Positions 16,039 through 42,883 of a stretch of 64,000 bases of DNA are shown piece after piece. This DNA is from Sinorhizobium glycinis. Its GTDB lineage: Bacteria; Pseudomonadota; Alphaproteobacteria; Rhizobiales; Rhizobiaceae. The notes under the pieces are model-generated. The model searched no databases. It had not been told where the DNA came from and was given only the letters and a program-made list of their open reading frames with translations. Made by a program: the position numbers and the translations under genes. The stretch is from NCBI RefSeq assembly GCF_001651865.1, contig NZ_LPUX01000053.1:868001-932000 (forward strand). Reading direction: 5' to 3'. Numbering within the stretch: position 1 is the stretch's first letter; every line of letters begins with the position of its first letter.

Positions 16039-19000
16039 TCAGGTTGCCAGATAGGCCGCGATCACTGCCGCTATCTGATCGGAGTTCAGAGCGTCCATCT
16101 GGGAGTCCATCAACGCGTTGAGTTGCGTGCTGGACAGGTTCGAGATGTCGTCCGTCGACAGACCCGCGACACCGGATGCGCTAAACGAGGCGACATCCTC
16201 GGCCGAGAAGGTCGCCAGATCCTCGGTCTCCAAGGCCGCGACCTGCGCCGAGGTCATCGCCCCGACCTGAACGGCCGTCAGGGCCTCCGCCTGATCCGTG
16301 GTCAAGGCGGCGACGACCCTGGTGGTCAGTCCCGAGATCCCACTCGTACCCAAGGCGACGATATCATCGGTGGAGAGCTGGGCGATGTCGTCCGTCCCCA
16401 AGGCCGCCGCCTGTATGGCGTTGAGAGCACCGAGCTGCGCGGTGGACAAGGTGGCGATCTGGGCGGCGCTCATCGCCGCCACCTGGTTGTAGCTCAGCGA
16501 CCCGACCTGACTTGCTCTCAGGGCGGCGATCTCGTCCGTGGAGAGTGCTGCGACAAAGTCCGTGGACAATCCCTTTATGGCAGCCGCGCTGATCGCCTGC
16601 AGCTCCTCGGTCGTAAACGTCGCGAGATCCTCGGTAGTGAAACCCGCAAGCCCATCCGCGCTCAAGGCGGCAATCTGATCCGTGGACAGCGAATCGATCT
16701 GCTCGGCGCTCATGGCTCCGACCTGAGCGCTGCTCAGGCCCGCAATGCTGGCCGTGCCGAGGGCGGCAATCTCGGCGGTGGAAAGCCCTGCAATGAATTC
16801 CGTGGGCAGTCCGCGGATGGCGGCCGAACTGATCGCCGCGAGTTCGTCGCCCGAGAAGCCTTCCAAGTCATCCGTGCTCAGCCCCGACAGCGCATCCGAG
16901 CTCATGGCAGCGATCTGGACGGTGGTAAGGGCCTCGACCTGCTCATCGCTCAAGGCATGGACCTGGTCGCTGTCGAGGCCGGCAATACCCGCCGTGCTCA
17001 GCGCGGCAATCTGCGCCGTCGAGAGCACCGCGAGGTCGTCGGTGCTCAGGGCCGCCACCTGCTTGGAGCCGAGACCGCTGATCTGCGCCGTCGACAGGCC
17101 CTCGATCTGGTCAGTGCTCAGCGCATTGATCTGGGCGGTGGAAAGGCCTGATATGCCGGCCGAGCTCAAGGCCCCGATCTGATCGACCGAAAGCGCAGCG
17201 ATCGTATCGGTGGACAGTCCTGCTACGGCACTCGAACTGATCGCCGCTATTTCGTCCGTCGAGAAGGTCTCCAGATCATCCGTGCCGAGGACGGCGATCT
17301 GCTTCGAACTCAGCGCGGCAATCTGGAGCGAGGTGAGAGCCTCGACCTGGTCGGTGTTCAACGCGTTGATCTGGGCCGTAGAAAGGCCGGCGATGCCACC
17401 GGTGCCAAGCGCCGCGATCTGATCCTCCGAAAGCGCAGCGATTGTGTCCGTGGACAGTCCCGCTACGGCACGCGAACTGATCGCCGCGATCTCGGCCGTC
17501 GAAAAGTTCTCCAGATCGCCCGTGCTCAGCGCCGCGATCTGCGTCGAACTCATAACGGCGACCTGGGCGGAGGTCAGCGCCTCGAGCTGATCGGCATTCA
17601 GCACGTCCATCTGAGCGGTGGAAAGGCCGGCAATTGCAGCCGTATCCAGGGCGGCAATCTGGTCCGTGGAGAGAATGGCAATGTCGTCCGTTCCCAGCAC
17701 CGCCATCTGTTTGGAGCTGAGCGCGGCGATCTGGCCGGTCGACAGCGCCTCGAGCTGGCCGGTGCTCAATGCCTGGATCTGAGCGGTGGAAAGACCGGCT
17801 ACACCGGCCGCGCTGAAGGCGGCGATCTGATCGGCCGAAAGCGCCGCCAGCGTGTCGGTGGATAGTCCCGCCACGGCGCTCGAACCGATCGCCCCGATAT
17901 CCGCGCTCGAAAAGCTCTCCAGATCGTCCGTGCTCAGCGCCGCAATCTGCGTCGAACTCATCACCGCGATCTGGCTGGTGGTCAGAGCCTCGAGCTGATC
18001 GGCGCCCAGTGCCTGGATGTGCGCCGTGGAAAGTGCCGCAACGCCGGCCGTGCTCAGAGCGGCAATCTGTTCCGTCGTAAGGGCAGCTATGTCGCCGGTG
18101 CCGAGCGCCGCCACCTGTTTGGAGCTGAGGGAGGCGATCTGGTCGGTCGAAAGCGCCTCGAGCTGGTCGGCGCTCAGCGCACCGACCTGGGCGGTGGAAA
18201 GGCCGGCAATGCCGGCCGCGCTCAGAGCCGCGATCTGATCCGCCGAGAGCGCCGCTATCGTGTCCGTGGATAGCCCCGCGACGGCATCCGAACTGATCGC
18301 CGCGATATCTGCGGTCGAGAAGTTCGCAAGATCGTCGGTGCTCAAGGCGGCGATTTGCGTCGAACTCAGCGCCGCCACCTGGCCGGTGGTCAGGGCTTCG
18401 AGCTGCTCGGCGCTCAGCGCATCGACCTGCGCGGTCGAAAGGGCCGCAATGCCAGCGGTACCCAGCGCGGCAATCTGGTCCGCCGAAAGAGCTGCCAGGT
18501 CGTCGGTCCCCAGCACCGCCACCTGCTTGGAGCTAAGCGCAGCCACCTGTTCGGTCGAAAGGGCGGCAAGCTGTTCGGTGCTCAACACGTTCATCTGGGC
18601 GGTGGTAAGGCCGGCGACCCCGTCCGTGCTCAAGGCGGCGATCTGCTCCGCCGAAAGTACCGCAATCGTGTCGGTGGACAATCCCGCTATGGCACTGGAA
18701 CTGAGAGCCGCGATCTCCGCGGTCGAAAAGCCTGCTATGTCGTCCGAACTCAAGGCGGCGATTTGCCTCGACCCGAGAGCGGCGATCTGGGTCGCCGTCA
18801 GGGCATCGACCTGGCCCGCGCTCAAGATGGCGATGTCCGCGGTGCTGAGGCCGACGACACCCGCCGCGCTCAGCGCAGCGATCTGGTCGGTCGAGAGCGT
18901 CGCGACGTCATCCGTGCTCAAGGCATCCACCTGCCTGGAGGTGAGCGCTCCGACCTGAGCCGTGGTGAAGGCGGCAAGCTGATCGGTGCTCAGGGCATCG

Positions 19001-22000
19001 ACCTGCTTGGTGCTCAGCGCCGCAACGGCATCCGTATCCAAGGCGGCGATCTGATCGGTGGAAAAGGCGGCGATGGCATCGGTCGATAGAGCGGAAACGA
19101 GATCCGCGCCGATCGCCGCGACCTCGTCGACGGAGAGTGCCTTTATGTCGTCTGCATCAAGGGCGGCGATTTGCTGGGACGTCAATCCGCTGAGCTGCTC
19201 GGTCGACAGGGCGCCAATCTGGTCGGAACTCAGGACAGCCATCTGCTTGGTGGTCAGTCCCGCAACGGCAGTGGCGCTCAGGGCGGCGATCTGCTCAGTA
19301 GAAAGGGAAGCGATGGCAGCCGTCGAAAGCCCCGCTATGGCGCTCGATCCGATGGCCGCCATGTCCTTGGTCGAGAAGCCCGCCACGTCGTCCGTGCCAA
19401 GGGCTGCTAGCTGCGTCGAGCTCAGGGCGCCGACCTGGGCAGCGGCCAGCGCCTCTACCTGATCGGTGCTCAACGCGGCGAGCTGCTTGGTGGTCAGTCC
19501 GGCGATGGCAGCGGTGCCCAAGGCTTCGATCTGATCGGTCGAAAGCACCTGGATGTCGCTGGTGCCCAACGCGGTGACGTGCACCGAACTCAACGCGGCA
19601 ATCTGCTTGGTGCTCAAGGCAGCGAGCTGATCGGTGCCGAGTGCGTAGACCTGCGCACTGCTCAGACCCGCAATGCCGGCCGTGCTCAGGGCGGCGACCT
19701 GAGCCGTGGAAAGCGCAGCGACAGCAGCGGTGGAGAGGCTGGACACGGCATCCGAACTGATCGCCGCGATGTCCTTGGTCGAAAAGACCGCAATGTCTTC
19801 CGCCGCCAGGCCTCGGAGCTGCGTCGCGCTCAGAGCGCCTACCTGTGTCGAGGACAGGGCCTCCACTTGATCGGTGCTCAAGGCAACGAGCTGCTTGGTG
19901 TTCAGCCCTGCGATCGCGGCCGTGCTCAAAGCTGCGATCTGATCGGTCGAGAGACCCGCAAGATCGCTCGTTCCCAAAGCGGCGATCTGCGCCGACCCAA
20001 GCGCGGCGACCTGCTTGGTGCTCAGGGCGGCGAGCTGACTGCTGCTGAGCACGTTCAACTGGGCGCTGCTGAGGCCGGCAACACCGGCGGTGCTCAGCAG
20101 AGCGATCTCGTCGGTGGAAAGGGCGGCCACGACGGCTGTAGACAGTCCGGCCATCGCACTTGCGCTGATCGCCGCAATGTCCTTCGTCGAGAAGGCCGCA
20201 ATGTCTTCCGTTCCGAACGCCCCAAGCTGCGTCGAGCTTAGCACGCCGACTTGTGCCGCGGTCAGGGCGTCCATCTGATCGGTGCTCAGGGCATCGATCT
20301 GCTTTGTGCTCAGCCCCGTGATCGCAACCGTACTCAACGCCGCGATCTGGTCGGTCGAGAACGTCGCAATATCGCTGGTGTCCAGCGCGGCGATTTGCGC
20401 CGAGCTCAGCGCGGCAACCTGCTTGGTGCTCAGCGCCACGATCTGATCCGAGGAAAGGGCCTCGACCTGGTCGGCGGTCAACTCGTTGATGCCGGCAGTG
20501 CTGAGCGCGGCGATCATGTCGGAGGACAAGGCCGCGACGGTCTCCGTGCTCAAGGCGGCGACCTGCGTCGGTTTCAGCGCTGCAATCTGTTTGGTGCTCA
20601 AGGCCGCAACCTGGTCGGAGCTGAGCGTCGCCATCTGGTCCGTGCTCAATCCCGCGATGCCGGCGGTGCTGAGCGCGGCAATCTGCGTGGAGGACAGAGC
20701 CGCCACGACATCCTCCGACAAGCCGGAAATGGCCTTGGAACCGATCGAAGCGATATCGGCGGTCGAGAAACTTGCGATATCCTCCGGCTTCAGTGCCGAG
20801 AGCTGCGTGGAGCTCAGGACGGCCACCTGCGTGGTGGACAGGGCGGCGATCTGATCGCTGGAGAGGGCATCGATCTGATCGGTGCTGAGGCGAGCGATGC
20901 CCTTCGTGCTCAGCGCCAGGACCTGGTTCGTGGTGAGGGCTTCGATGAGATCTTCCGTCAGCCCCGCTACGGCGCTCGAACTGATCGCCGCTATATCGGC
21001 GGTCGAGAATGCCGCTATGTCCTCCGCACTGAGGGCCGCAAGCTGCTCGGAGCCGAACGCGGCAACCTGTGCGGAGGAGAGAGCCGCGACCTGATCGGAG
21101 GACATGGCTTCGATCTGGTCGGCGGCAAGCCCGGCAACCGCCTTCGTTCCGAGAGCGGCGACCTGCACCGTGGTCAAAGCCGCGACGTTGTCCGTGCTCA
21201 GCGCCGCAATCTGCGTCGAGCTCAGGGCTTTGAGCTGTGCGGTGGACAGTGCCGCAGCCTGGTCGGTCGACAGGGCAGCGATCTGTGCGGTCGCCAGACT
21301 GGCGATCGCACTCGTGCTGAGCGCCGCTATCTGAGCGGTGGAAAGCGCAGCAAGTGCGTCCGCGCTGACGCCGGGGACGGCTTTGTTTGTGATCGCCGCG
21401 ATATCGGCGGTCGAGAACATTGCGATGCCGTCCTCACCGAGGGCGGCGAGCTGTGCCGAGCTCAGCGCCTTCACCTGCGAGACGGACAAGGCCCCCGCCT
21501 GACCGGTCGACAAGGCCTCCATCTGGGTGCTCGTCAAGCTGGCGACCGCACTCGTGCTGAGTGCCGCAATTTGATCGGTGGACAGGGACGCGACGACCTC
21601 GGCGTCCAATCCCAATACGGCTTTGTTGCTGAGCGCCGCGATATCGCCGGTCGAGAACATAGCCAACCCGTCGGTGCCAAGGGCCGCAATCTGTCGTGCG
21701 TTCAGGACCTTTACCTGCGTCACTGACAGAGCCTCGACCTGGTCGGTCGACAAGGCGGCGATCTGGTCGGTTGTCAGCCCCATGACGCCCTTGGTGCTGA
21801 GCGCCGCGACCTGGTCCGTGGACAAGGCTTCGACGTTGTCCGTGCCAAGGGCGGCGACTTGCGCCGAGCTCAACGTCCTGAGCTGTGCGGCGGAAAGGAC
21901 CGCGGTCTGGTCGGAGGACAATGCTTCGCTCTGCGCGGTCGTCAGGCCCGAGATCGCACTCGTGCTGAGCGCTGCAACCTGAGCGGTCGATAGCGCGGCG

Positions 22001-23115
22001 ATCGCTTCCGTGCTCACGCCCTTGATGGCCAGGTTGGTGATCGCCGCGATTTCGGCAGTCGAGAACGTCGCGATGCCGTCGGTGGCGAGCGCCGCAAGCT
22101 GTCTCGAATTTAGCGCCTTCACCTGCAAGGCGGACATCGCCTCGGCCTGATCGGTCGACAAGGCGGCCATCTGTCCGGTCGTCAGGCTGGCGACCGCCGT
22201 CGTGTTCAGGGCGGCAACCTGGGCGGTGGAGAGCGCAGCGATGGCGCCTGTGGTCAAGCCCCATGCGGCCTTGCTGATCGCCGCAATCTCGGCGGTCGAG
22301 AATGTCGTTATGCCGTCCGTCTCCAGGGACCCGAGCTGCGCCGCCGTCAGCGCCTTCACCTGCGAGACGGTCAGTGCCTCGATCTGGTCGGTCGACAGGA
22401 CGGCGATCTGAGTGGTGGACAGCCCCGTGATTGCCGAGGCGCTCAACGCAGCTATCTGGTCAGTGGAAAGCGCGGCGATGTCGTCGGTGCCCAAGGCATC
22501 GATTTGCGACGCCTTCAATGCACCGACCTGGGCCGTCGTCAAGACGGCAATCTGGTCGGTGGACAAGGCGGCGATCTGCGCAGTCGTCAGGGCGGCGACA
22601 GCACGCGTGCTCAAGGCGGCAATCTGATCCGTGGACAGCGAGGCGAAGACATCCGTGGGGAGCCCGGTTATGGCTTTCGCGCCGATGGCCGCGATGTCGG
22701 CAGTCGAGAAGGCCGCCAGGTCTTCCTCGCTCAGGACCGAGAGCTGCAGTGCGCTAAAGGCGCCGACCTGGGTCGAGGTCAAAGCCTCCGCCTGCTCCGT
22801 CGACAGGCCATTTATCTGCGTCGTGGTGAGGGCTGCAACCTGGCTCGTGCCGAAGCTTTCGATGTCCGATCGGTCGAGAACGGCGAGCTGCTCCAGGGTC
22901 AAACCCACGATGGCGCTTGGAGCGATGGCGCCCAGCTGCCGGGAGCTGAGGACATCGACATCCTCCGTGTCGAGCGCCGCGATCTGAGCGGAAGACAGCA
23001 CGCTGATCTGCTTCGTCGTCAGCGAAGCCACATCTTCCGTCGTCCAGGCAGCAACGGCCGCCGTCGAGTAGGATTTGATCAGAGTGGGGCTGAGGGACGA
23101 AATGATGGAGGTCAT
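16039..23115 (-). CDS. Giant octapeptide-repeat protein 1 (2358 aa)
   Basis: Function unknown. After a 7-residue leader (MTSIISS) the whole protein is a run of octads with consensus L-S/T-T-D/A-Q-I/V-A-A. 2358 = 7 + 294 x 8 - 1, and the one missing residue is the heptad ISKAAWG encoded at 22258-22278. Octads group mostly into blocks of 17, each marked by FSTADIAA; at least one block has 10. No Cys, few charged or aromatic residues, very high Ser/Thr and Ala/Leu. No signal peptide and no RTX nonapeptides. The last residues (LNSDQIAAVIAAYLAT) resemble the end of its paralogue and may be an export signal. The nearby type I exporter and glycosyltransferases suggest an exported, glycosylated surface fibre; that is inference. 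The gene lies 451 bases after glf and probably has its own promoter. Confidence 0.85.
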   Translation of the reverse strand: MTSIISSLSPTLIKSYSTAAVAAWTTEDVASLTTKQISVLSSAQIAALDTEDVDVLSSRQLGAIAPSAIVGLTLEQLAVLDRSDIESFGTSQVAALTTTQINGLSTEQAEALTSTQVGAFSALQLSVLSEEDLAAFSTADIAAIGAKAITGLPTDVFASLSTDQIAALSTRAVAALTTAQIAALSTDQIAVLTTAQVGALKASQIDALGTDDIAALSTDQIAALSASAITGLSTTQIAVLSTDQIEALTVSQVKALTAAQLGSLETDGITTFSTAEIAAISKAAWGLTTGAIAALSTAQVAALNTTAVASLTTGQMAALSTDQAEAMSALQVKALNSRQLAALATDGIATFSTAEIAAITNLAIKGVSTEAIAALSTAQVAALSTSAISGLTTAQSEALSSDQTAVLSAAQLRTLSSAQVAALGTDNVEALSTDQVAALSTKGVMGLTTDQIAALSTDQVEALSVTQVKVLNARQIAALGTDGLAMFSTGDIAALSNKAVLGLDAEVVASLSTDQIAALSTSAVASLTSTQMEALSTGQAGALSVSQVKALSSAQLAALGEDGIAMFSTADIAAITNKAVPGVSADALAALSTAQIAALSTSAIASLATAQIAALSTDQAAALSTAQLKALSSTQIAALSTDNVAALTTVQVAALGTKAVAGLAADQIEAMSSDQVAALSSAQVAAFGSEQLAALSAEDIAAFSTADIAAISSSAVAGLTEDLIEALTTNQVLALSTKGIARLSTDQIDALSSDQIAALSTTQVAVLSSTQLSALKPEDIASFSTADIASIGSKAISGLSEDVVAALSSTQIAALSTAGIAGLSTDQMATLSSDQVAALSTKQIAALKPTQVAALSTETVAALSSDMIAALSTAGINELTADQVEALSSDQIVALSTKQVAALSSAQIAALDTSDIATFSTDQIAALSTVAITGLSTKQIDALSTDQMDALTAAQVGVLSSTQLGAFGTEDIAAFSTKDIAAISASAMAGLSTAVVAALSTDEIALLSTAGVAGLSSAQLNVLSSSQLAALSTKQVAALGSAQIAALGTSDLAGLSTDQIAALSTAAIAGLNTKQLVALSTDQVEALSSTQVGALSATQLRGLAAEDIAVFSTKDIAAISSDAVSSLSTAAVAALSTAQVAALSTAGIAGLSSAQVYALGTDQLAALSTKQIAALSSVHVTALGTSDIQVLSTDQIEALGTAAIAGLTTKQLAALSTDQVEALAAAQVGALSSTQLAALGTDDVAGFSTKDMAAIGSSAIAGLSTAAIASLSTEQIAALSATAVAGLTTKQMAVLSSDQIGALSTEQLSGLTSQQIAALDADDIKALSVDEVAAIGADLVSALSTDAIAAFSTDQIAALDTDAVAALSTKQVDALSTDQLAAFTTAQVGALTSRQVDALSTDDVATLSTDQIAALSAAGVVGLSTADIAILSAGQVDALTATQIAALGSRQIAALSSDDIAGFSTAEIAALSSSAIAGLSTDTIAVLSAEQIAALSTDGVAGLTTAQMNVLSTEQLAALSTEQVAALSSKQVAVLGTDDLAALSADQIAALGTAGIAALSTAQVDALSAEQLEALTTGQVAALSSTQIAALSTDDLANFSTADIAAISSDAVAGLSTDTIAALSADQIAALSAAGIAGLSTAQVGALSADQLEALSTDQIASLSSKQVAALGTGDIAALTTEQIAALSTAGVAALSTAHIQALGADQLEALTTSQIAVMSSTQIAALSTDDLESFSSADIGAIGSSAVAGLSTDTLAALSADQIAAFSAAGVAGLSTAQIQALSTGQLEALSTGQIAALSSKQMAVLGTDDIAILSTDQIAALDTAAIAGLSTAQMDVLNADQLEALTSAQVAVMSSTQIAALSTGDLENFSTAEIAAISSRAVAGLSTDTIAALSEDQIAALGTGGIAGLSTAQINALNTDQVEALTSLQIAALSSKQIAVLGTDDLETFSTDEIAAISSSAVAGLSTDTIAALSVDQIGALSSAGISGLSTAQINALSTDQIEGLSTAQISGLGSKQVAALSTDDLAVLSTAQIAALSTAGIAGLDSDQVHALSDEQVEALTTVQIAAMSSDALSGLSTDDLEGFSGDELAAISSAAIRGLPTEFIAGLSTAEIAALGTASIAGLSSAQVGAMSAEQIDSLSTDQIAALSADGLAGFTTEDLATFTTEELQAISAAAIKGLSTDFVAALSTDEIAALRASQVGSLSYNQVAAMSAAQIATLSTAQLGALNAIQAAALGTDDIAQLSTDDIVALGTSGISGLTTRVVAALTTDQAEALTAVQVGAMTSAQVAALETEDLATFSAEDVASFSASGVAGLSTDDISNLSSTQLNALMDSQMDALNSDQIAAVIAAYLAT

Positions 23116-23566
23116 GCGTGAAAACCCTTGGGGTCTGAATAGTCTCTATCTGCCAAACGACGCCCCGAAAGAGCGGTCGTTCCTGAAGCCTCGGGCACAT
23201 CCGGCAACAGCTGTTGCCCGTTCGGGCGACCGCGGAGATCGCCGTCGTCAGAAGGCGTAGCCCAAGTTCGAATTGCAGGTTGAGCGAGGGAAACGTCCGG
23301 ATACCGGCATGGGCGATCTCATGGCTGCTATGGGAATAAGCTGCCGTCGATAATAGTCAGCAACCTTGTGTCTGTCTGACCTTCAACGCCGTCACGTATT
23401 CGTTGCAGCGGAGCGGTCCGCAGGGCGACCATAGGGTGAGATTGGCCCGCCTTCCTTCGTGGCATGCTCTTTCGTTTGCCGTCTATCTTCTGCCGACCGG
23501 ATCGCCAGAATTCCGGGGCGGTTCGATGGCGCTGATCCGCAACAATCACGCCATCGTTATCGTCGA
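23116..23566. other. Upstream region of giant gene 1, with 16-base palindrome
   Basis: 451 bases between the end of glf and the start of giant gene 1, both on the minus strand. It contains a perfect palindrome GGCAACAGCTGTTGCC at 23203-23218, about 88 bases before the giant gene's ATG, which could be a regulator site. No gene with a plausible ribosome binding site was found. The palindrome is not present before giant gene 2. Confidence 0.4.
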
Positions 23567-26021
<2,455 letters not shown>

Positions 26022-26051: not shown

Positions 26052-28106
26052 TCATCGCGCGTCGGCTGTCGCCGCTGTCCACAAGCGGGAGTCGAACGGG
26101 ATTGGCGAAAAGGCGTGCCACTCGGCCAGCTTCTCGACATACCGCTGCCGATAGGCGGCGCTGTCGACGAACTCCACGTTTTCCTTCATGATCTCCGCCC
26201 CGACCTCGTAATAGATGTCGAGATTGCCGAGATCGGGCACGGGCGTTTCGCCGCGCTCGCACTCGCCATGCATTTGCCAGAACAGTTCTTCCAGGCGCCG
26301 GACGAGAGCCGGAATGTCGCGCAATACGCTCGCGTCGCGCCGGCTCTCCAGAGCCTGCCTGACACGCGCGAGGCTCTGTCGGTCCTTCGCGAACCCAATT
26401 GCCTTGCGGACGAAGTCGTCCGGTCCGTCGCAAATGAGTTCCGGCACGCCTGCCGCGGCGACGATGCTCGAGCAGAATCGCGACGCGAAGCCGTTGCCGG
26501 GCGCTGTCAGGACGGGCAATCCCATGGTCAGCGCGTCGCCGGCGGTGGAATGCGCCCCATAGGGGAAGGTGTCGAGGAAGAGATCGGCCAATCCGATGCG
26601 CGCCAGATGGTTGGGGTTGGGAGCCTTCGAAGCAAAGATCAGGCGCTCGGGTGCGACACCACGCTGTTCGGCCGCCTGCTTGAGGCGCTGATCGACATTC
26701 TCGCCGCCGCCGAGCAGCCAGAGGAAGCTGCCGGGCGTCGCGGCAAGGATTGCCATCCAGCGATCGAAGCAAGCGGCGGTGATCTTCTGCGCACCGTTGA
26801 AGCAGGCGAATATGAAGCCGTCCTCCGGCAGCCCCGCTTCGGCCCGGCTTGGCCGCGGCGCGATCTGCCGCTTGCGGTCGACGGGCTGGTTGCAAGGGAT
26901 GCGCAGCACCTTTTCCGAATAGTAGATCTCGTTTTCCGGCGGGATGATCTGCTCGTCGGCGATGATGTATTGGTGGAAGGGGCTGCCCATCGTGCCCGGA
27001 TACCCGCAGAAGCTGACGATCACCGGCGCCGGCCGGTAGGCGAAGATTTTGGTGCGGGCATGTTTCGTGTAGCCGTTGACATCGACGAGAATGTCGATTT
27101 CGTCGGCGATGATCTGCTTTGCGGCGTCGATGTCACTGACGGCGGAAATGTCGCGCCAGCAGTCGATGGCGCTCATCATCCGCGTCTGCGTTGCGTCGCC
27201 CGTCCGCGCTTCGCCGCAATAATAGGCGTAGATCTCGACGCTGCTCTTGTCGTGCGTTTCGAAAACCTCGCTGAGCGCGAAGCCAACCGCGTGGTCGCGC
27301 AGGTCCGACGACACATAGCCGACGCGCAATCGCTGCCCGGTTCCGGACTTTTGCCGAGGCAGGAGCTTCGGGAAGCCGTTCAAGTCCGGTCGGCCCACCA
27401 GCGACTTGCAGTAGCGATAGGCCTTGGCAAGCTGGAAAACCGGATCGTCAGCATAACAGGCAAGGGTCAACGGAGACAGCGCATCGAGCAGTTGCCGGGC
27501 CGATACATGTTCCGAAGGGGCCAATGTCGGCCATTTGCATTGGCGTTGCCTGAGCGATGTCCAATGCTGGCCGGCCTCGGTCTTGTCTGGCCTGAGCTCG
27601 ATCGCCTTCCACAGCGTGCTTTCCGCCTCCTCCATCAGACCGGCATTCTCGAGCACCCGACCCATGTGCTGGAGGACCATCAAACGATGCGCGGCGCGCT
27701 CCGGCGTGATCTCGGAGGTCGCCTCGGCATAGACTTGCCATTGTTGAATCGCCTGACCCGTCAGTCCGGCATCCTCCAGGGCACGGCCGAGATTGATATG
27801 ACCCTGGCCGAAGCGCGGCTCGAGCTTCAGGCAGGCGCGCAGGGCATGAATGGAGCCGGCAAGGTCGCCCATCTGCCTGAGCGTGACGGAGTAGTTGAAA
27901 TAGACGAGGTGAAGCAGCGGATTGGAATCGTTGTAGGCGATCCAGGATTTGTAGAGTTCGGCAGCCTGCTCTCTCTGCCCGGCGGCATTGAAGCTTTCGG
28001 CAAACTGGAACAATTCCGTCAGGGGAAGCCGCTGTTGTCGCGCCCTTTCCAGGAAACCAGCAAGTGGAGAAGCAGGATCCGAAGCGAGGTGAGTGTAAAT
28101 GGTCAT
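26052..28106 (-). CDS. TPR-containing GT41 (OGT/SPINDLY-like) O-glycosyltransferase
   Basis: Likely transfers a sugar from a UDP-sugar to Ser/Thr of proteins in the cytoplasm. The 684 residues have TPR-like helical repeats at about 30-190 (AAELYKSWIAYNDSNP, ALRACLKLEPRFGQGHINLGRALEDAG, AESTLWKAIELRPDK), then the GT41 catalytic region. VGYVSSDLRDHAVGF (His272), FCGYPGTMGSPFHQYIIAD, FNGAQKI (Lys441) and YGAHSTAGDALTMGLPVLT (His519) align by eye with the human OGT His498, Lys842 and His920 segments. The ATG at 28106 follows GGGA; an in-frame ATG at 28151 would add 15 residues without a good binding site. First gene of the operon with the second transferase and glf. The adjacent Ser/Thr-rich giant proteins are obvious candidate substrates. 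Confidence 0.88.
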   Translation of the reverse strand: MTIYTHLASDPASPLAGFLERARQQRLPLTELFQFAESFNAAGQREQAAELYKSWIAYNDSNPLLHLVYFNYSVTLRQMGDLAGSIHALRACLKLEPRFGQGHINLGRALEDAGLTGQAIQQWQVYAEATSEITPERAAHRLMVLQHMGRVLENAGLMEEAESTLWKAIELRPDKTEAGQHWTSLRQRQCKWPTLAPSEHVSARQLLDALSPLTLACYADDPVFQLAKAYRYCKSLVGRPDLNGFPKLLPRQKSGTGQRLRVGYVSSDLRDHAVGFALSEVFETHDKSSVEIYAYYCGEARTGDATQTRMMSAIDCWRDISAVSDIDAAKQIIADEIDILVDVNGYTKHARTKIFAYRPAPVIVSFCGYPGTMGSPFHQYIIADEQIIPPENEIYYSEKVLRIPCNQPVDRKRQIAPRPSRAEAGLPEDGFIFACFNGAQKITAACFDRWMAILAATPGSFLWLLGGGENVDQRLKQAAEQRGVAPERLIFASKAPNPNHLARIGLADLFLDTFPYGAHSTAGDALTMGLPVLTAPGNGFASRFCSSIVAAAGVPELICDGPDDFVRKAIGFAKDRQSLARVRQALESRRDASVLRDIPALVRRLEELFWQMHGECERGETPVPDLGNLDIYYEVGAEIMKENVEFVDSAAYRQRYVEKLAEWHAFSPIPFDSRLWTAATADAR

Positions 28107-28852
28107 TGAAATCCCACTAACAGGCGAGTTGGCGGCCGACGCAGAGAACATGTTCGAAGGCTATTTCACGCCATTAACCGGACTAGCTTGCCTTGGGCTT
28201 GCGCCGCTTCGATAAGCAAGGATCGGGCGTGGTACACAACGAACCGCTCGTATGAACATCCTCCGGCCCTGCCCGGGTCCTTCGGCCCGCGAGGCAGAAC
28301 GAAGCGGCATAAGGCAGCGGTCGAGCCTCTCGGCACTTTACCTTTCGCTGCGTATTGCCAACCATGGATTCGATGTATTAGCGTCTCGTCAGACGCAAGC
28401 CTGCTCTCGAATCTTCGCGCCCAGGCCGAGTCCGGTCGAATGCTCTGGCATTTGCCCTTCAAGCCGGCCCGTTAACCAAAATTTTAACTTTGGCAGCTAG
28501 TCGTAGTAACCGAGTGCCGCAGTCGGCAACCGCCGGATGAGACTGCGGCGAAGATGACGGAGCCGATCTCGCCAGGGAAAGGTTCCATTCATAGGCGTAG
28601 GAAATAGGACGCGCTGGTCCTGTGTGCATGAAGCTTTCCGAACGCTAGGGCTCACGCGAGCCATGTCCCTCAACCCGATATTTTCGCCCATCAGGACGCT
28701 TTGAGCCGAAGCGGGTCTTCGCGTCCGGGTGGACAGGCGTCGCACGAGGTCGCACGTGTCACGCGCTTGGTTCCTTCGGGGTTCCCGGCGCTTGTCGCAC
28801 TTTCGGCGTCAACGGGTTTTCCACAAGCGATTAACTTTGAAGGCTCGCGTCC
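28107..28852. other. Divergent regulatory region between the GT41 operon and giant gene 2
   Basis: 746 bases with no supported gene. It should hold the promoters for the glycosyltransferase operon (left) and giant gene 2 (right). A hairpin GCGTCT-cgtc-AGACGC is at 28381-28396 and an AT-rich patch at 28472-28495. The short open frames here lack ribosome binding sites and overlap each other. Confidence 0.5.
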
Positions 28853-33916: not shown

Positions 33917-33929
33917 CGGCGTCGGTGCC

Positions 33930-34041: not shown

Positions 34042-34099
34042 TTGCCATTCGCCCGTTGTTCCGGTGGGATGCGCCACAAGAGTTGATGAACCTCTCGCG

Positions 34100-34400: not shown

Positions 34401-34459
34401 GCGGCTCAAAAGCTGAAGCCGGTTCCACGTGAAAGGCGAAGCGGCCTCAGGCTCCAGTG

Positions 34460-34942
34460 TCAGCGTGGGAAGGAGTATCGGTCGACCATCGCCCAGATCT
34501 CCCTGTTGATCCTCTGGATGTGCTCGATGACCTCGTTGATCCGCACGATTTCCGCATCGTCGATCTGCTCGATCTTGCCGTATTTGATCGTGTCCTTGCT
34601 GTCAAAGATGGCCATCAACTGGGTGCTCGCCTGATCACCGGTCTCGTCGAAGGAATAAATGCAGTGGCTGTATTTGTTCCTAAGCTTCACCTGCCGACCA
34701 AGTTGTTGCGTTATTGCAAGAATTTCTTGCCGGCGCGACGCTGGTGTCTTGCTCGTCTTGGCGAGTCTCTCGACGAGCTCGATGCGAGCGCGCGTGGTAT
34801 TAAGCGTCAGGAAGATGACGATGGCCGTCTCCTTGTCCGTATTGGCAAGGCCGGCGATCAGGTAAATGAGCAGGCTTTCAGTGTTGGTCCAGGTGTAGTT
34901 CAGTTGCCCAATCAAAAGTAGGAGCTCTTGGTATCTCTTCAT
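34460..34942 (-). CDS. HEPN-like protein of unknown role (160 aa)
   Basis: Mostly helical. Residues 88-93 read RNKYSH, an exact R-N-x3-H form of the R-X4-6-H motif that defines catalytic HEPN ribonucleases, in a typical setting (VKLRNKYSHCIYSFDE). The N-terminal helix (QELLLLIGQLNYTWTNTESLLIYLIAGLA) resembles the first helix of HEPN folds. No partner antitoxin gene lies beside it: the left neighbour is a repeat and the right is a divergent gene. No clear ribosome binding site, so the start is uncertain. It could be an orphan RNase toxin or a non-toxic HEPN protein. Confidence 0.6.
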   Translation of the reverse strand: MKRYQELLLLIGQLNYTWTNTESLLIYLIAGLANTDKETAIVIFLTLNTTRARIELVERLAKTSKTPASRRQEILAITQQLGRQVKLRNKYSHCIYSFDETGDQASTQLMAIFDSKDTIKYGKIEQIDDAEIVRINEVIEHIQRINREIWAMVDRYSFPR

Positions 34943-35368
34943 AGGTTTACGTGCCCGTATACAGAATGGTGAGAATATCTCATTTCGGCGCCCGGTATAC
35001 TACCTCAAGTTAGCAGCCTATCCACCCGTGGAATTCTCGGGCGCATCTCCTCCATCGAACTGGCAACTTACATTTCGGTTGTCCCGGCAACAGACTTTTT
35101 CCCGCAGCACGGGAGCAGGAAAACGCTCAGGTCTGGGAGGACGAGTGTCTGCGCCGCAAGGGCGCTCCTTTCGAAGGACCTACTGCTCCCCTCAAAGAAG
35201 GGAGAGTGAATGCCCAGCGCAAGACGAGAACCTTGAACAGCGGACCTGCGGCCATTCCTGGCCGTCGATCCCGCTTCCTCATCATCAACACTCAGCCCGC
35301 GCATGGCTCAAATCCGCGTGAAAGAAAATGGCGGTTCGGCTGTCGCGGCTCAATTTGAGGATACTCTT
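34943..35368. other. Divergent intergenic region before the low-complexity gene
   Basis: 426 bases between the HEPN-like gene (left) and the Gln/Asn/Gly-rich gene (right). It should contain promoters for both. An in-frame ATG at 35303 precedes the chosen start but has no ribosome binding site. No other gene or strong palindrome seen. Confidence 0.4.
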
Positions 35369-37084: not shown

Positions 37085-37194
37085 GGGTATTTCGACGCCT
37101 CCGATCCGCAATCCTCGGAATCGGGAATTGAACTGGACTGCGCGGGCTCGTCCCGCGCGGCCCAACGGCACCGAAATGCAAAGGCGGGCTGACA

Positions 37195-39201
37195 ATGACC
37201 GTGTATTTCGACAAGACCACCGAGGCGATTGCCCATTTCATCGGGCTGTTCGCAATTGCCATCGAAGAAGTCCGACTGCGTGAGGCCTATGAAGAGTTCA
37301 AGGCTCTCCAGAAAGCCCAGGAAGACCCGCAGGAGCTGTCCTCCGTGCCCGTCACGGTCAAGGCGAATTACGAGCTCGAGGGCTTCGATCCCCGTGTTTC
37401 CTATCGGCCGGTCGAGCCGGACCTGGTCGAGACGTCCCTCGGACGGCATCCCGGCGTCCACCCAGAGGAAATAACGCCCTCGCGCCCGGTAAGCGAAATC
37501 GACAATCCCGGCCCCTATACCCCGAATGCGCCCAGTTCCACATCGTCGGGCGGCGCCGCGGAATTTCAGATCGATCCGCCCGGGTCGACGGCTGTGTACG
37601 CTTCCCAGCACATCTGGCTTTCGGACAACGATGTCGTCAGCCTTGGCGGTCACGGTCTGCACGTCGAATCCCAGGTGGACAACAGCGCCCTCATGAACGA
37701 TCTCATCGAAGCGGCGCGGCAGATGTCCCCCCTCGGCGACGAGGAGATTCCAGGTTCGCCCGAGGAGATTGCCACCTACATCACAACCGCTGCGCAGGAG
37801 CTTGATGCCTTCTCCGCCGACGGACAGGAAGGCGCCTTCGTGGCGAAATCCGAGACCCTCGAAGGCACGTTCGTCGATGGAGAGCTCGTAGAGCAGGCAC
37901 CCAGCCTCGAAGACTACCTGCCGCCACAGGAGGAGATGCCGGACGGCAAGCCGGCTCCCACCGATCAGGCCGGCGGCGCCTTCACCGCGGGCAAGGGACC
38001 CGTCTCGATCGAGCCTGCGGTCGAACTGCAAGCCGGCGGCAACACCCTGGTCAATTCCGTGCAACTGACAAACAACTCGCTACAGTCGCAGGTGCTCGCT
38101 GTCGCCGGCGACCATGTCGAGCTCAACGCGATCAGCCAGATCAATGTGCTGTGCGACAACGATCTCTTGAGTCCCGCCCTCAACGGCTGGAACCTCGACT
38201 CGGCCAAGCCGTCCGAGACGTTCAACATCGCGATGTTCAAGCATCTCGACCCCTCCCCCGCCAACACAGAGCAGGCGGGAGTCGGCGACTTCCCGAAGGT
38301 CTGGGCGATCACCGAGATCGAGGGCGACCTCCTGATTGTGAACTGGATCGAGCAATTCACCTTCGTGACGGATGAGGACACGGCCGTTCTCGCGTCCGCC
38401 GGCACCAAGGCTTCGATCATTACAGGCGACAACACCGCGATCAACGACGTCTCGCTCGCCGAGCTCGGCCACTACTACGACCTCATCTTCGTCGGCGGCG
38501 ATGTTTACGACGCCAATATCATCCAGCAGGCGAATATCCTGCTCGACAACGACCTGGTTGACGCCGTCGAAGGCTTCGGCACAAGCGGCCAGGGGTCGGT
38601 CTCCACCGGGGAAAACCTGCTCTGGAATGAGGCGGGCATCGTGGAAGCAGGTGGGGCGACCACCGTGGAGCCGATGCCGGAATCCTACCTTGACGCCTTC
38701 GGCGATCTCGCAGGCGACAAGAAATCGCTTCCGAAGGACGTCCTCAGGGATGACGCGTTCGCCGGCATGAACGGCTTGAAGGTCCTCAATATCAAGGGTC
38801 ACCTCGTCAATCTCAATTCCATCAAGCAGACCAACATCCTGGGCGACAGCGACGAGGTCGCGCTGGCGAAGAACAAGCTCGTCGGCCATGCCAAGGCGGA
38901 TTGGACGATTTCGACGGGTTCGAACAGCTTGGTCAACTATGCGGGAATCGTCGATGCCGACCCCGGCAAGACCATTTACACCGGCGGCAACGCCTATTCG
39001 GACGAGGTCCTTTTCCAAGCCCAGCTGATCGATACCGAACCCGACCTCGCAGCCCAGAATCCCGACGCGCTCATCAACGAAGCGGTGGCATTCCTCGGCG
39101 AAGACATGATGGCTCCGGACCCCGGACCCAAGCCCCTGGACCACGCGCCGCCTCCGATCGACACGACGAGTGCCGATCCCATGCAAAGCATGCTCGCCTG
39201 A
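37195..39201 (+). CDS. Acidic four-repeat protein of the secretion cluster (668 aa)
   Basis: Unknown function. The N-terminal 60 residues form a helix that looks amphipathic (HFIGLFAIAIEEVRLREAYE, FKALQKAQED), then a Pro-rich linker. From about residue 125 a motif of the form G-x-N-x-L-x-N-x-a-x-I followed by V-x-G-x-x-Y/V-x-x-N-x-I-x-Q-x-N-I-L-x-D-x-D repeats; clear copies start near residues 283, 413, 474 and 577 (VNSVQL/ISQINVLCDND, IIQQANILLDND, IKQTNILGDSD). Such regular short strands suggest a beta-solenoid. Rich in Asp/Glu, one Cys, no signal peptide. It lies between the low-complexity gene (110-base gap) and the exporter ATPase (19-base gap), which argues for a part in export or for being its substrate. 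Confidence 0.75.
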   Translation: MTVYFDKTTEAIAHFIGLFAIAIEEVRLREAYEEFKALQKAQEDPQELSSVPVTVKANYELEGFDPRVSYRPVEPDLVETSLGRHPGVHPEEITPSRPVSEIDNPGPYTPNAPSSTSSGGAAEFQIDPPGSTAVYASQHIWLSDNDVVSLGGHGLHVESQVDNSALMNDLIEAARQMSPLGDEEIPGSPEEIATYITTAAQELDAFSADGQEGAFVAKSETLEGTFVDGELVEQAPSLEDYLPPQEEMPDGKPAPTDQAGGAFTAGKGPVSIEPAVELQAGGNTLVNSVQLTNNSLQSQVLAVAGDHVELNAISQINVLCDNDLLSPALNGWNLDSAKPSETFNIAMFKHLDPSPANTEQAGVGDFPKVWAITEIEGDLLIVNWIEQFTFVTDEDTAVLASAGTKASIITGDNTAINDVSLAELGHYYDLIFVGGDVYDANIIQQANILLDNDLVDAVEGFGTSGQGSVSTGENLLWNEAGIVEAGGATTVEPMPESYLDAFGDLAGDKKSLPKDVLRDDAFAGMNGLKVLNIKGHLVNLNSIKQTNILGDSDEVALAKNKLVGHAKADWTISTGSNSLVNYAGIVDADPGKTIYTGGNAYSDEVLFQAQLIDTEPDLAAQNPDALINEAVAFLGEDMMAPDPGPKPLDHAPPPIDTTSADPMQSMLA

Positions 39202-39220
39202 TGGGCCGGCGGAGGAGATG

Positions 39221-41539
39221 ATGGCCGACGACCGCGCACCGACCTTTGAAGAGCTCGCCACGGACGGCGACGTGGTCTCTTCGCTCGATTCCAAGGCGGA
39301 GCATTCCCCTGATCAAGTGCTCCGTACACTCGACCGTCGGGAGAACGTCCTGAAGCGCACCGTCAAGGAGATCGACGAGGTGATTGACCATCTTCGCGGC
39401 GCGGCGGCCGCAAGACCTGACCAGAACACCAATGGCCCAGATACGACCGCCCCGACCGCATCCGAGCGGATTTCGACGCCGGCAGCCGAGGTCATTCTAC
39501 AGGCAGCCCCGCCTCCCCTGAAAGCCGACACCGCAAACGCCCCCGAAATCCGGGACGGACGAGGAAACGGGGAATCCGGCAGCGGGCTGATTCAGGACGA
39601 CGGCAAACCCGAACCGCGCTTCGAAAAACCAAGTGCCGAGCCCAGGGCCGAAGCCAAGGACAAGACCACCATGTCGGGAATGGTCGTTATCGAGGGCGAC
39701 CGCGGTCCGATAAAGGCAGAGGCCCGGACACCGGATAAGCGTGGCTCCCCGGGAGGAGAAGGCGGCGGAGACGGCAAAGGAGGAGGCGGAGGCGCCGGTG
39801 TCTTCCATAAACGCCTCGGCCCGGTCGATTTCTCCGCCAGTCTCAAGGCGGGTCTGCGGGCGATCAGGCAGAACCTAATGATCGTGATGCTGTTCACCAT
39901 CGCCACCAACATTCTCGTGCTCGCCATACCGATCTATCTGTTTCAGATATCCGACCGGGTGCTCACGAGCCGCTCGATCGACACGTTGGTGATGCTCACT
40001 GGGCTGATTGTCGGCGCCGTCATCCTGCAGGCGATTTTCGATGCAGTTCGCCGCATGATCCTGATGCGCACCGCGGTGGAGGTTGCCGCGCAGCTCGGCG
40101 CGCCGATCCTCAGCGCGGCCGCCAGAGCCTCGCTGCACAGCAATGGTCGCGAATATCAGACGCTTGGCGATCTGCAGCAGCTGCGCTCCTTTCTGGTGTC
40201 GAGCACACTGCTCTCCTTTCTCGATGCCCCGATCGCGCCGTTTTTTGTGGTGGCAGTCTTCCTCATTCACCCGCATCTCGGCTCCATCGTCATCACCTCG
40301 GCACTGCTTCTTCTCGTCGTGACCTTGTTGAACCAGAAGGCGACGGCGGCTTCCTTCGGCGAAGCCAATACGTTTCAGAGCAAGGCAAACCTCCACCTCG
40401 ATTCGATGTCGCGCAATTCGCAGATCATCAATGCGCTTGCCATGATCCCGGAATCCGTCCGCATCTGGGGCAGGGACATGGCCAGCTCGTTCACGGCGCA
40501 AGTCGTGGCGCAGGACCGCAACATTGCATTCGCTTCCCTCTCCAAGGCCTTGCGGTCGCTCACCCAGGTCATGATGCTCGGCTGGGGCGCCAATCTCGCC
40601 CTGCGTGGGGACCTTACGGGCGGTATGGTGATCGCCGCATCGATCATTGCCGGCCGAGCCCTCGGGCCGATCGAGGGGGCGATCGAAGGCTGGAACCAGG
40701 TGGTCCAATCGCGCGCCGCCTATTCTCGCATCGCCTCCCTGCTGCAGTCCTCGCCGCTCAATTTCGAGCGCCTGAAACTGCCGCGTCCGGAAGGGCGCCT
40801 CGACGTCGAACGGCTGCTTTTCGTCCCGCAAGGCACGAAGCGCGTCATCCTCAACGGCGTGACCTTCTCGCTCAATCCGGGTGATTCGCTGGCCGTGATC
40901 GGCAGTTCCGGAGCGGGCAAGACAACGCTCGGCAAAATGCTTGTCGGCTCCATCCTGCCGACATCCGGCAATGTCCGGCTCGATCTCATGGATCTGAGGA
41001 ACTGGGACCAACGTCAGTTCGGCGAAAGCATCGGCTATCTCCCACAGGACGTCCAGCTCTTTCCGGGAACCATCAAGGCCAATATCGCCCGCATGCGGGA
41101 GGACGCCAGCGACGCTGAAATCTATGCGGCCGCCAAGCTCGCCGATGTGCATGACATGATCGCGCAGCTGCCGCACGGATATGAGACTTTCGTGGCGGCG
41201 GACGGATCCCCCCTCTCAGGCGGCCAGAAACAACGCGTCGCGCTCGCCCGCGCCTTTTTCGGCAATCCTCGCATGGTGGTGCTCGACGAGCCCAATTCCA
41301 ATCTCGACAGCGCGGGAGAGGCGGCGCTGACGCGGGCACTCGCCCATGCAAGGAAGCAGCAGATCACCGTCGTGACCGTTACCCAACGACCGGCCCTCCT
41401 CAACAGCGTCGACAAGGTGCTGCTGCTGGTGAACGGCACCGTGGCCCTCTTCGGCATGCGCCAGGACGTTCTCAAGGCCCTCGCCTCCCGCGGAATGAAT
41501 CTCGAGGGCAATCCGCTCGACCACAATCAGCTTACGTAG
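39221..41539 (+). CDS. Type I secretion ABC transporter (PrtD/PrsD-like) with long N-terminal extension
   Basis: Inner-membrane ATPase/permease for one-step export. 772 residues. Residues 1-200 are a hydrophilic extension rich in Pro, Gly and charged residues (GGEGGGDGKGGGGG). Then comes a six-helix membrane domain starting NLMIVMLFTIATNILVLAIP near 215. The ABC domain has Walker A GSSGAGKTT at 561, LSGGQKQRVALARAFF at 665 and Walker B MVVLDEPNSNLD. There is no C39 peptidase domain, as in PrtD-type exporters of proteins with uncleaved C-terminal signals. Start at 39221 is preferred over 39218 because of the GGAGG spacing. Followed after 6 bases by its adaptor gene; a TolC-type outer-membrane partner is not in the window. 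Confidence 0.92.
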   Translation: MADDRAPTFEELATDGDVVSSLDSKAEHSPDQVLRTLDRRENVLKRTVKEIDEVIDHLRGAAAARPDQNTNGPDTTAPTASERISTPAAEVILQAAPPPLKADTANAPEIRDGRGNGESGSGLIQDDGKPEPRFEKPSAEPRAEAKDKTTMSGMVVIEGDRGPIKAEARTPDKRGSPGGEGGGDGKGGGGGAGVFHKRLGPVDFSASLKAGLRAIRQNLMIVMLFTIATNILVLAIPIYLFQISDRVLTSRSIDTLVMLTGLIVGAVILQAIFDAVRRMILMRTAVEVAAQLGAPILSAAARASLHSNGREYQTLGDLQQLRSFLVSSTLLSFLDAPIAPFFVVAVFLIHPHLGSIVITSALLLLVVTLLNQKATAASFGEANTFQSKANLHLDSMSRNSQIINALAMIPESVRIWGRDMASSFTAQVVAQDRNIAFASLSKALRSLTQVMMLGWGANLALRGDLTGGMVIAASIIAGRALGPIEGAIEGWNQVVQSRAAYSRIASLLQSSPLNFERLKLPRPEGRLDVERLLFVPQGTKRVILNGVTFSLNPGDSLAVIGSSGAGKTTLGKMLVGSILPTSGNVRLDLMDLRNWDQRQFGESIGYLPQDVQLFPGTIKANIARMREDASDAEIYAAAKLADVHDMIAQLPHGYETFVAADGSPLSGGQKQRVALARAFFGNPRMVVLDEPNSNLDSAGEAALTRALAHARKQQITVVTVTQRPALLNSVDKVLLLVNGTVALFGMRQDVLKALASRGMNLEGNPLDHNQLT

Positions 41540-41545
41540 GCGACC

Positions 41546-42883
41546 ATGACAGACGCAGTCAAAGTTTACGACCTCGAGTGGTATTCACCGGTTCCGCGCT
41601 CGATCTGGAGACATACCGTCTTTGGGCTCGCCCTCATGGCAGTTACGTTCGGCGGCTTCAGCTGGTGGGCCTTCACGGCGCCACTGGCCGCTGCCATCAT
41701 CGCCCAGGGAAGTTTCGTCGCGACCGGCCAGAACAAGATCATCCAACACCTTGAAGGCGGGATCATCGAAGAAATCCTGGTCAACGAAGGCGATCAAGTA
41801 GACGCAGGCCAACCGCTCATTCGGCTGGACGAAACGGCGGCGCGCGCCAACGAACGGCAGCTTTTTCTGCGGCAGGCGCGACTGGAGGCGATAATCGCCC
41901 GCCTCCAGTCGCAAATAGGAGGGGCCGACGAGATTGCACTGCCGGACCACCTTCGTCCACGGCCGGACGACCCGGACATCGGGCGGATAATCCGCAGTCA
42001 AGAGGTCAATTTCCAGTCCTGGAAAAGCAAGTTGGACAGCGACATCGAACTGCTGATGCGGAACATCGAGAGTTTCCGCTTCCGCGCGAAAGGCTACGAG
42101 CAACAACTCAAGTCAGTTCGCCAGCAGCGTGTTCTCCTGCAGGAGGAATATGCCAGCAAGACGTCGCTCCTGAAGAAGAATTTGATCCGCAGGACGGAGA
42201 TCAAGACGATCCAGCGGTCGATCGCCGACGCGGAGGGGCAGGCCGGGAGACTGACCGCCGAGATAGCGGAAACCGGCGTCCAGATTCTGAAGCAAGAGCA
42301 GCAGGTCCAGCAGGTACGGGAAAGCTATCGCGAGGCCGCCCTCGAGGAACTACAAAAAGTGGAGGCCGAACTGGATTCGGTGCGCGAGCAGTTGCGCGGG
42401 GCGGCCAGCGTCCTGCGCCGCGCCACCATAAACGCCCCGGTCAGCGGCAAGGTGGTCAGGCTTTACTATCACACGCCCGGAGGCGTCATCGAAAGCGGCA
42501 AGCCGATCATGGAAATCCTGCCGTCCGACGTGCCTCTCATCATTGAAGCACTGGTGCTCCGCACCGAGATCGACAACGTCAAAGTCGGTCAGAATGCGAC
42601 CGTCAGACTGACCGCCCTCAACCAGCGGACGACGCCGGTCTTGAATGGCGAAGTCTTCTATGTTTCCGCCGACTCGGTGCCCGACACAACGGGCGACGGC
42701 GCACGGGAGGTCTATTTGGCCCGGGTCAACCTGCCGGTCAGCGAGCTCTCAAGAGTTCCCGGCTTCGCGCCAACTCCAGGGATGCCGGCGGAGATCCTAA
42801 TCCAGACAGCAGAGCGAACCTTTTTCGACTACCTGACCAGGCCGATCCGGGACAGCATGGCACGTGCCTTCATGGAACGATAA
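41546..42883 (+). CDS. Type I secretion membrane fusion protein (HlyD/PrsE-like)
   Basis: Periplasmic adaptor joining the ABC exporter to TolC. 445 residues: one membrane span at about 24-46 (HTVFGLALMAVTFGGFSWWA), a biotinyl-lipoyl half (GQNKIIQHLEGGIIEEILVN), a long coiled coil at about 95-290, the second lipoyl half (INAPVSGKVVRLYYHTPGGV) and a beta-barrel domain with GMPAEILIQTAERTFFDYL at the C-terminus, the usual HlyD-family ending. Six bases after the exporter gene, so co-transcribed. Confidence 0.93.
   Translation: MTDAVKVYDLEWYSPVPRSIWRHTVFGLALMAVTFGGFSWWAFTAPLAAAIIAQGSFVATGQNKIIQHLEGGIIEEILVNEGDQVDAGQPLIRLDETAARANERQLFLRQARLEAIIARLQSQIGGADEIALPDHLRPRPDDPDIGRIIRSQEVNFQSWKSKLDSDIELLMRNIESFRFRAKGYEQQLKSVRQQRVLLQEEYASKTSLLKKNLIRRTEIKTIQRSIADAEGQAGRLTAEIAETGVQILKQEQQVQQVRESYREAALEELQKVEAELDSVREQLRGAASVLRRATINAPVSGKVVRLYYHTPGGVIESGKPIMEILPSDVPLIIEALVLRTEIDNVKVGQNATVRLTALNQRTTPVLNGEVFYVSADSVPDTTGDGAREVYLARVNLPVSELSRVPGFAPTPGMPAEILIQTAERTFFDYLTRPIRDSMARAFMER

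Follow-up and report, generated by a model that had tools for sequence, protein, structure and literature searches.

Giant octad-repeat proteins of Sinorhizobium glycinis and its relatives as probable substrates of a co-encoded GT41 glycosyltransferase

Two giant repeat proteins, a glycosyltransferase of family GT41, a second transferase and a UDP-galactopyranose mutase (Glf) are encoded side by side in a 64,000-nucleotide stretch of the Sinorhizobium glycinis genome (contig NZ_LPUX01000053.1, positions 868,001 to 932,000; the whole stretch is called the window here), with exporter genes nearby. The locus raises the question whether these genes work together and, if so, which residue receives a sugar, from which donor, and by which route the product leaves the cell. 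The genes and coordinates were found just as a first-pass annotation of the same DNA had described them. Judging from comparative sequence evidence, we consider it highly probable that the GT41 enzyme modifies the repeat proteins, and probable that the whole is explained as a dedicated cytoplasmic O-glycosylation cassette for them. The genes concerned, in window positions, are the following.

16039..23115, minus strand: P0001, giant octad (ALTTAQ) protein of type ALT1, 2358 aa, PF20080
23567..24724, minus strand: P0007, UDP-galactopyranose mutase (Glf), PF03275
24768..26021, minus strand: P0008, predicted (from its model) GT-A-type glycosyltransferase with a galectin-like insert, accessory
26052..28151, minus strand: P0009, tetratricopeptide repeats (TPR) and GT41 glycosyltransferase, PF13844
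28853..33916, plus strand: P0002, giant octad (ALTTAQ) protein of type ALT2, 1687 aa, PF20080
35303..37084, plus strand: P0003, Gly/Asn/Asp-rich protein, gene 1 of a probably separate four-gene type I secretion cluster
37195..39201, plus strand: P0004, conserved protein of the P0003-P0006 cluster, without family match
39170..41539, plus strand: P0005, PrtD-type ABC exporter, TIGR01842
41546..42883, plus strand: P0006, HlyD-type adaptor, TIGR01843

The GT41 gene, P0008 and glf share one strand, with intergenic gaps of 30 and 43 bp. P0002 is divergent from the GT41 gene, 701 bp away, and P0001 comes 451 bp after glf. PF13844 matches in the 6.04-Mb genome containing the window are confined to the P0009 gene.

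Each window protein was used as a query against 151 Rhizobiaceae genomes. Orthologues of the GT41 enzyme were found in 13 genomes of nine genera, with 64-77% identity to P0009 outside the window genome. Octad proteins (P0002 as query, E <= 1e-25) appeared in 23 genomes, clearly in 20 and weakly in three, and clear octad genes were present in all 13 GT41 genomes versus 7 of the 138 others (Fisher 4e-14). The weak matches (G035, G070 and G086) were set aside for the few octads in their loci (L140-L142), the surroundings of which by eye resemble type III secretion neighbourhoods; with these genomes counted in, the association still stands at 6e-13. Glf (E <= 1e-30) occurred in 35 genomes, namely in 13 of 13 with GT41 versus 22 of 138 others (Fisher 7e-10), and in all 13 its gene lies directly beside that of GT41 or one gene off. 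GT41, Glf and octad proteins thus belong together, as the first-pass annotation had supposed.

A second collection comprised the best 80 of 289 GT41 relatives (66-97% identity), mostly from Rhizobium, Sinorhizobium and their kin with one from Xanthobacter, and shared at least three genomes with the survey of 151. Octad genes were seen in the flanks of 74 of these loci, Glf in 62 and P0008 in 32, some flanks ending at contig ends. All six genomes without a flanking octad gene carry octads elsewhere. The 18 loci without flanking Glf represent 17 genomes, 16 of which have Glf elsewhere; Glf was missed only in a metagenome bin, where the contig breaks off within P0008. Where P0008 is lacking and the genes share a strand, glf follows GT41 immediately in 40 of 41 loci. 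Because of these flank counts, the Glf genes elsewhere and the GT41-glf order without P0008, the minimal set consists of GT41, Glf and an octad protein. At two loci with octads elsewhere (L088 3364-9390 and L095 2-2161), a large open reading frame (ORF) that by eye encodes a surface protein adjoins GT41. The 93 pooled GT41 loci include at least three identical pairs (L013/L047, L014/L079 and L016/L103), each being the same genome twice.

A wider survey of the class (385 genomes, the best two or three candidates per genome scored, strict cut-offs) confined P0009 relatives at 44-47% identity to the genomes G378, G350 and G446, ten further genomes having GT41 matches at 36-40% (E <= 1e-90). Octads (E <= 1e-60) were found there in the window genome, these three and G215 (Fisher with GT41 5.5e-9), and they adjoin GT41 in all three distant genomes. 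Relatives of the set span several bacterial groups, some of them with an export pump of their own.

P0008 is an accessory member of the set. It had no glycosyltransferase family match by sequence in Pfam or NCBIfam; the sole match above cut-off was PF12248 (28.7 bits vs 24.2), and the NCBIfam search gave no name to P0008, P0003 or P0004. The predicted structure has a GT-A-like fold with a galectin-like insert at about residues 57-200, and with its Asp-rich metal motif P0008 has the features of a GT-A glycosyltransferase. It was found in 4 of the 151 genomes, all among the 13 with GT41, and is missing from the flanks of 48 of the 80 loci, and was therefore rejected as a necessary part. Relatives of P0008 (P0127 and P0128, 44-45%) occur in Commensalibacter.

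The assignment of P0009 to GT41 is clear (PF13844, 236.7 bits vs a cut-off of 25, plus TPRs). Its best match in the PDB is XcOGT (2jlb, E 1.3e-75), and residues H287, K456, H534-T536 and D539, invariant in 13 GT41 sequences, align with XcOGT and human OGT; we take them to include the His, Lys and His-Ser/Thr-Thr of the GT41 catalytic region. P0009 is 97% identical to the GT41 enzyme of Sinorhizobium fredii USDA 205. In a tree of 24 GT41 proteins the 16 octad-linked ones fell into two supported clades, and a single origin of all of them was recovered in 47% of bootstrap trees. The GT41 protein of L127 lies outside both clades, but on a long branch; it is a distant relative (33%) that adjoins four flagellin-like genes in G017 (L127 1299-8068) and may be a flagellin-modifying enzyme like FlmG. 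In L114 (2-6008) two tandem GT41 genes come after the gene of another sort of adhesin, a YadA-type stalk/head repeat protein.

The nucleotide-sugar gene of the cassette points to the donor. P0007 is a UDP-galactopyranose mutase by PF03275 (258.5 bits, cut-off 26.3), with TIGR00031 slightly below its cut-off (301.3 vs 303.75). Glf was absent from the fetched stretches of the distant loci of G378, G350 and G446; in the GT41 cassettes of all three, and of Pseudoroseomonas, it is replaced by a UDP-glucuronate decarboxylase (UXS). The UXS gene directly precedes GT41 in G350 and G446, and G378 has the run UXS, octad, GT41, octad on a single strand, its UXS being 74% identical. Every NCBIfam model scored the distant-locus gene below cut-off, and among solved structures the product of L112 matched human UXS1 best (2.2e-128, the next enzyme 6.4e-40), closer to UXS than to other extended short-chain dehydrogenase/reductase enzymes; the genes of L113 and L131 are 95 and 74% identical to it. 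In Pseudoroseomonas cervicalis the row reads ABC, HlyD, UDP-glucuronic acid decarboxylase (the name in the record), GT41, GT41, with octad fragments upstream. Glf or UXS is present at the loci of all nine tree rows of the P0009 clade, and neither is among the annotated neighbours of the Cereibacter, Rhodovastum and Pseudomonas rows of the other clade; this contrast is our chief ground for supposing that the P0009-clade enzyme depends on a special donor. Whether the GT41 enzyme itself uses this unusual donor is evenly balanced in our judgement. Galactofuranose is most likely involved in the glycosylation of Rhizobiaceae octad proteins, and where UXS replaces Glf the donor is probably UDP-xylose.

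Both substrates proposed here belong to PF20080 (ALTTAQ_rpt; cut-off 26.4), P0001 with 1509 bits in 96 stretches and P0002 with 1212 bits in 68, and the repeats recur along the proteins. A loose octad pattern covers about nine tenths of each. It counted 263 octads in P0001 (mean 17 and maximum 32 in 50 shuffles) and 194 in P0002 (mean 10, maximum 16). Numbering the octad on L-S-T*-D-Q, with T* as position 2, we found Ser/Thr there in 203 of the approximately 263 octads of P0001 and in 169 of the approximately 194 of P0002. In the predicted structure position 2 is the first residue of each short helix and position 1 the helix cap. The PDB search with this model gave no close match (best mesothelin, E 5e-4, TM 0.35), and no signal peptide was obvious in the octad proteins by eye. 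An octad-like match (27% identity, E 4e-89) on plasmid CP117533.1 (13387-16254) of a Spiroplasma endosymbiont of Drosophila possibly reflects shared repeat composition alone.

Residues were tallied per octad position after dropping 9 of the 112 GT41-linked Rhizobiaceae ORFs, which had fewer than 25 countable octads. Ser/Thr occupied position 2 in 82+-10% of octads in the remaining 103 linked proteins (lowest 59), in 79+-5% in seven unlinked proteins from GT41 genomes and in 35+-12% (range 22-62%) in nine proteins of genomes lacking GT41; this last set has more Ala and Pro at position 2 (Pro 1.7, 2.7 and 16.2%, respectively). Position 1 (77, 80 and 74% Ser/Thr) and position 3 (22, 28 and 21%) did not differ among the three groups. 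The Mann-Whitney value for position 2 was 9e-7, for proteins that are related and in some cases duplicated. In a tree of N-termini (108 rows, L025 and L028 of the no-GT41 group left out) the seven no-GT41 Rhizobiaceae rows formed two separate clades, plus one distant row, so that there are about three independent contrasts. Linked proteins of six other lineages had 64-95%: 64 and 70% in G378, 95% in both G350 and G446, 94% in Cereibacter sphaeroides, 91% in Rhodovastum, 88 and 95% in the Pseudoroseomonas pieces and 72-79% in Pseudomonas. The octads of G215, which has no GT41, had 30%, and those of Thioclava and Shinella HZN7, from records that show no GT41 (chromosomes not searched), 44 and 53%. 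The Glf/UXS exchange, the contrast at position 2 and the place of this residue at the opening of a helix make it a likely O-glycosylation site, and we regard it as the probable acceptor. Ser/Thr of the octad, named as acceptors in the first-pass annotation, are thus supported as such and narrowed to one position. In our reading Pro, Ala and Ser/Thr all suit the fold there, and Ser/Thr would be kept where the enzyme modifies it.

The process could then run as follows. The TPR part of P0009 would bind the octad protein, as is suggested by FlmG, and the GT41 part would add a sugar to Ser/Thr at position 2, the helix start, with up to about 370 sites on P0001 and P0002 together, approximately one sugar per repeat. 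The donor would be supplied by the gene encoded with GT41, as UDP-galactofuranose made via Glf in Rhizobiaceae and probably as UDP-xylose where UXS takes its place. P0008, where present, may lengthen the glycan with its GT-A-type domain and galectin-like module. The product would be a helical octad fibre bearing a sugar about every eight residues and destined for the cell surface. Comparative support for the core idea, an octad fibre glycosylated by GT41 with galactofuranose, is strong. Only tentatively do we go further and suggest a GT41 clade with a switched donor that puts galactofuranose (Rhizobiaceae) or xylose (other Alphaproteobacteria) directly on position 2, the same sugar hundreds of times over in helical arrangement, on a fibre that is tied to the flagellum in Rhizobiaceae and exported by type I systems elsewhere.

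Several observations weigh against this interpretation. Solitary octad genes exist with no GT41 or Glf nearby: in the seven octad genomes without an orthologous GT41 neither gene was found in the stretches L023-L030, one of which is a contig of 7 kb. Of these seven genomes, G103 and G145 encode a distant GT41 (35%) at another place, and Glf is present in 1 of the 7 versus 21 of the other 131 genomes without GT41 (p = 1), which is uninformative. The first-pass annotation would have taken a prevalence of such octad proteins as a refutation; they make up 7 of the 20 clear octad genomes, so that this objection is half sustained, and their poverty in Ser/Thr at position 2 fits the idea. Nine of the 16 genomes with Glf away from GT41 hold only a Glf of 45-47% identity, maybe for other glycans, and no Glf or UXS is among the annotated neighbours of the GT41 loci of Cereibacter, Rhodovastum and Pseudomonas, which belong to the other clade. 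At position 2, the no-GT41 group is small (nine Rhizobiaceae proteins, seven within two clades), its members L026 and L027 are not low (62 and 50%), and the L111 protein, though linked, does not rise with its 64% above the level of the highest of them. At least three identical-locus pairs are counted within the 103 linked proteins. The unlinked proteins L136 and L138 of G350 and G446, where GT41 is present, have only 31 and 17%, and that of G378 has 66%; some unlinked octad proteins of GT41-bearing cells may not be substrates.

That the octad genes are mere neighbours of an enzyme acting on flagellin or surface polysaccharide seems very improbable: a TPR transferase, FlmG, does modify Caulobacter flagellin according to the excerpted text of PMC7591256, but the GT41-octad linkage holds across families and gene orders, and G017 has a separate GT41 enzyme (33%) beside its four flagellin-like genes. 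Drift or shared ancestry as the source of the difference at position 2, rather than an acceptor site, is unlikely. The proteins are not independent and the label changes only three times on the tree; on the other hand, the neighbouring positions 1 and 3 are unchanged, unlinked L119-L121 from GT41 genomes have 78-80% as against 22-31% in one no-GT41 clade of the same weakly resolved group, and the linked proteins of Acetobacteraceae, Cereibacter and Pseudomonas are again rich in Ser/Thr at position 2, compared with those of Thioclava and Shinella HZN7 given above. It is quite possible that the first sugar, put on by GT41, is a common one (GlcNAc, Glc or Gal) and that galactofuranose is placed on top by P0008 or another transferase. 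Such a galactofuranose cap, proposed in the first-pass annotation, is compatible with the gene content without being required by it: Glf is kept although 48 of 80 flanks, some cut by contig ends, lack P0008, only 4 of the 13 GT41 genomes have it, and glf then lies directly after GT41.

P0005 and P0006 are type I secretion components (TIGR01842, 697.7 bits vs 510; TIGR01843, 400.2 vs 208.7), while P0003 and P0004 matched nothing in Pfam or NCBIfam. That this cluster exports the octad proteins, as the first-pass annotation suggested, is improbable. It lies 1.4-9 kb from P0002, the same four genes (identities 71, 62, 77 and 79%) lie about 25 kb from GT41 on the same contig in G138 (L129 6943-14541), and the octad sequences show the eye no clear signal peptide. 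P0004, taken as the exporter marker, occurs in 32 of the 151 genomes, in 4 of 13 with GT41 versus 28 of 138 others (p = 0.48) and in 5 of the 20 octad genomes (p = 0.77), and the G138 cluster has its own Gly-rich protein. The cluster was thus rejected as a conserved partner. Because P0004 relatives are spread over so many family genomes, P0003-P0006 probably form a type I system of their own, with P0003 as its probable cargo. In kind, type I export fared better, four other lineages having such an exporter next to GT41 and octads. The exporter first named is probably wrong for this window and right in kind elsewhere. One of the four lineages is Pseudoroseomonas, with the gene row given above; in G350 and G446 the neighbours of GT41 and octads include HlyD and ABC genes (the best model for the G446 ABC protein is HlyB-type, 606 bits, below its cut-off of 726), and on two Pseudomonas plasmids TolC, HlyD and ABC genes. 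Cereibacter sphaeroides 2.4.1 (plasmid pA, L154 10952-21862) and ATCC 17029 have the order octad, GT41, peptidase-domain ABC, HlyD, methyltransferase, the octad protein of 2.4.1 (WP_011836189.1) being annotated as an ICE nucleation protein; the GT41 gene of this strain is DQL45_RS20570. From these gene neighbourhoods, export of octad proteins by some type I system appears to us an even matter. A passage of the Rhizobiaceae proteins through the flagellum, or a coat on it, is possible but rather doubtful. Flagellar or chemotaxis genes flank 15 of the 93 pooled loci, or 6 of 47 synteny groups, at various points of the flagellar cluster (cheD-fliF, fliG-flhB and among flagellins, names by eye), and 78 loci have no flagellar gene in the flank. 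The enrichment is post hoc, with binomial P of 0.006 (4/47) or 0.0008 (5/47) for a guessed background of 1.55%. In R. dioscoreae flgE (by Pfam) is directly upstream of octad-GT41, with no full flagellar cluster in the stretches read; plasmid 5 of Pseudorhizobium flavum (L161 499-13510) carries flgE, two flagellins, octad, GT41, P0008 and glf; and in Rhodovastum some 2 kb separate octad-GT41 from genes annotated for flagellar export. The octad N-termini MTSII/V resemble, by eye, the rhizobial flagellin start MTSIL. Type I systems take this place beside the genes in other lineages.

Ordinary neighbours elsewhere in the window are:

3892-8642, minus strand: sugar-type ABC transporter
50351-52606, minus strand: transglycosylase/transpeptidase
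55785-57008, minus strand: polysaccharide export protein (SLBB)

If the proposed cassette is real, it would be an apparently unstudied route to a sugar-armoured surface fibre, with the acceptor predicted to the residue and with the octad proteins lacking the enzyme as a built-in control group. Open-licence PMC papers, searched without the pairing of UXS and GT41, yielded nothing that treats octad proteins of this family together with GT41 or Glf. The donor range of GT41, the family that includes human OGT, would be wider, and galactofuranose or xylose would have a defined protein carrier, a scaffold with the sugar spacing fixed at eight residues. Since the laboratory strain Cereibacter sphaeroides 2.4.1 has a compact set that includes an exporter, the proposal lends itself to a direct test.

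Among known systems, HMW1C/HMW1A of Haemophilus is similar in that a soluble cytoplasmic GT41-type enzyme is encoded with its giant exported substrate. The substrate HMW1A is a beta-helix, unlike the octad protein. P0009, in contrast to HMW1C, scores 27.9 bits against a cut-off of 1000 with the HMW1C-type N-glycosyltransferase model (NF049992) and aligns best with OGT-type enzymes. In the excerpts of the published accounts, HMW1C modifies the neighbouring adhesin on Asn and the HMW1 adhesin leaves by two-partner secretion (PMC2877744, PMC3983070), whereas no two-partner secretion was noticed beside the octad-GT41 genes. Caulobacter FlmG is likewise a TPR transferase with a GT-B part that O-glycosylates an exported protein in the cytoplasm and binds it via the TPR part; in the portion of text consulted it transfers pseudaminic acid onto flagellin (PMC7591256), while here glf or UXS is the partner gene and an octad protein stands in the place of flagellin as the substrate. 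Of the OGT enzymes, XcOGT is the best PDB match of P0009, with aligned catalytic-region residues, although the genomic partner of P0009 suggests another donor sugar. The designed octad protein HeliScrew4 (9zem) follows the same octad plan (sequence match E 5.5e-19) but has Pro at position 2 in seven of the nine counted octads of the printed stretch, recalling the proteins without GT41, where Pro is commoner. Membership in the ALTTAQ family PF20080, to which both P0001 and P0002 belong, is by itself uninformative on glycosylation; it is octad position 2 that sets the GT41-linked members apart.

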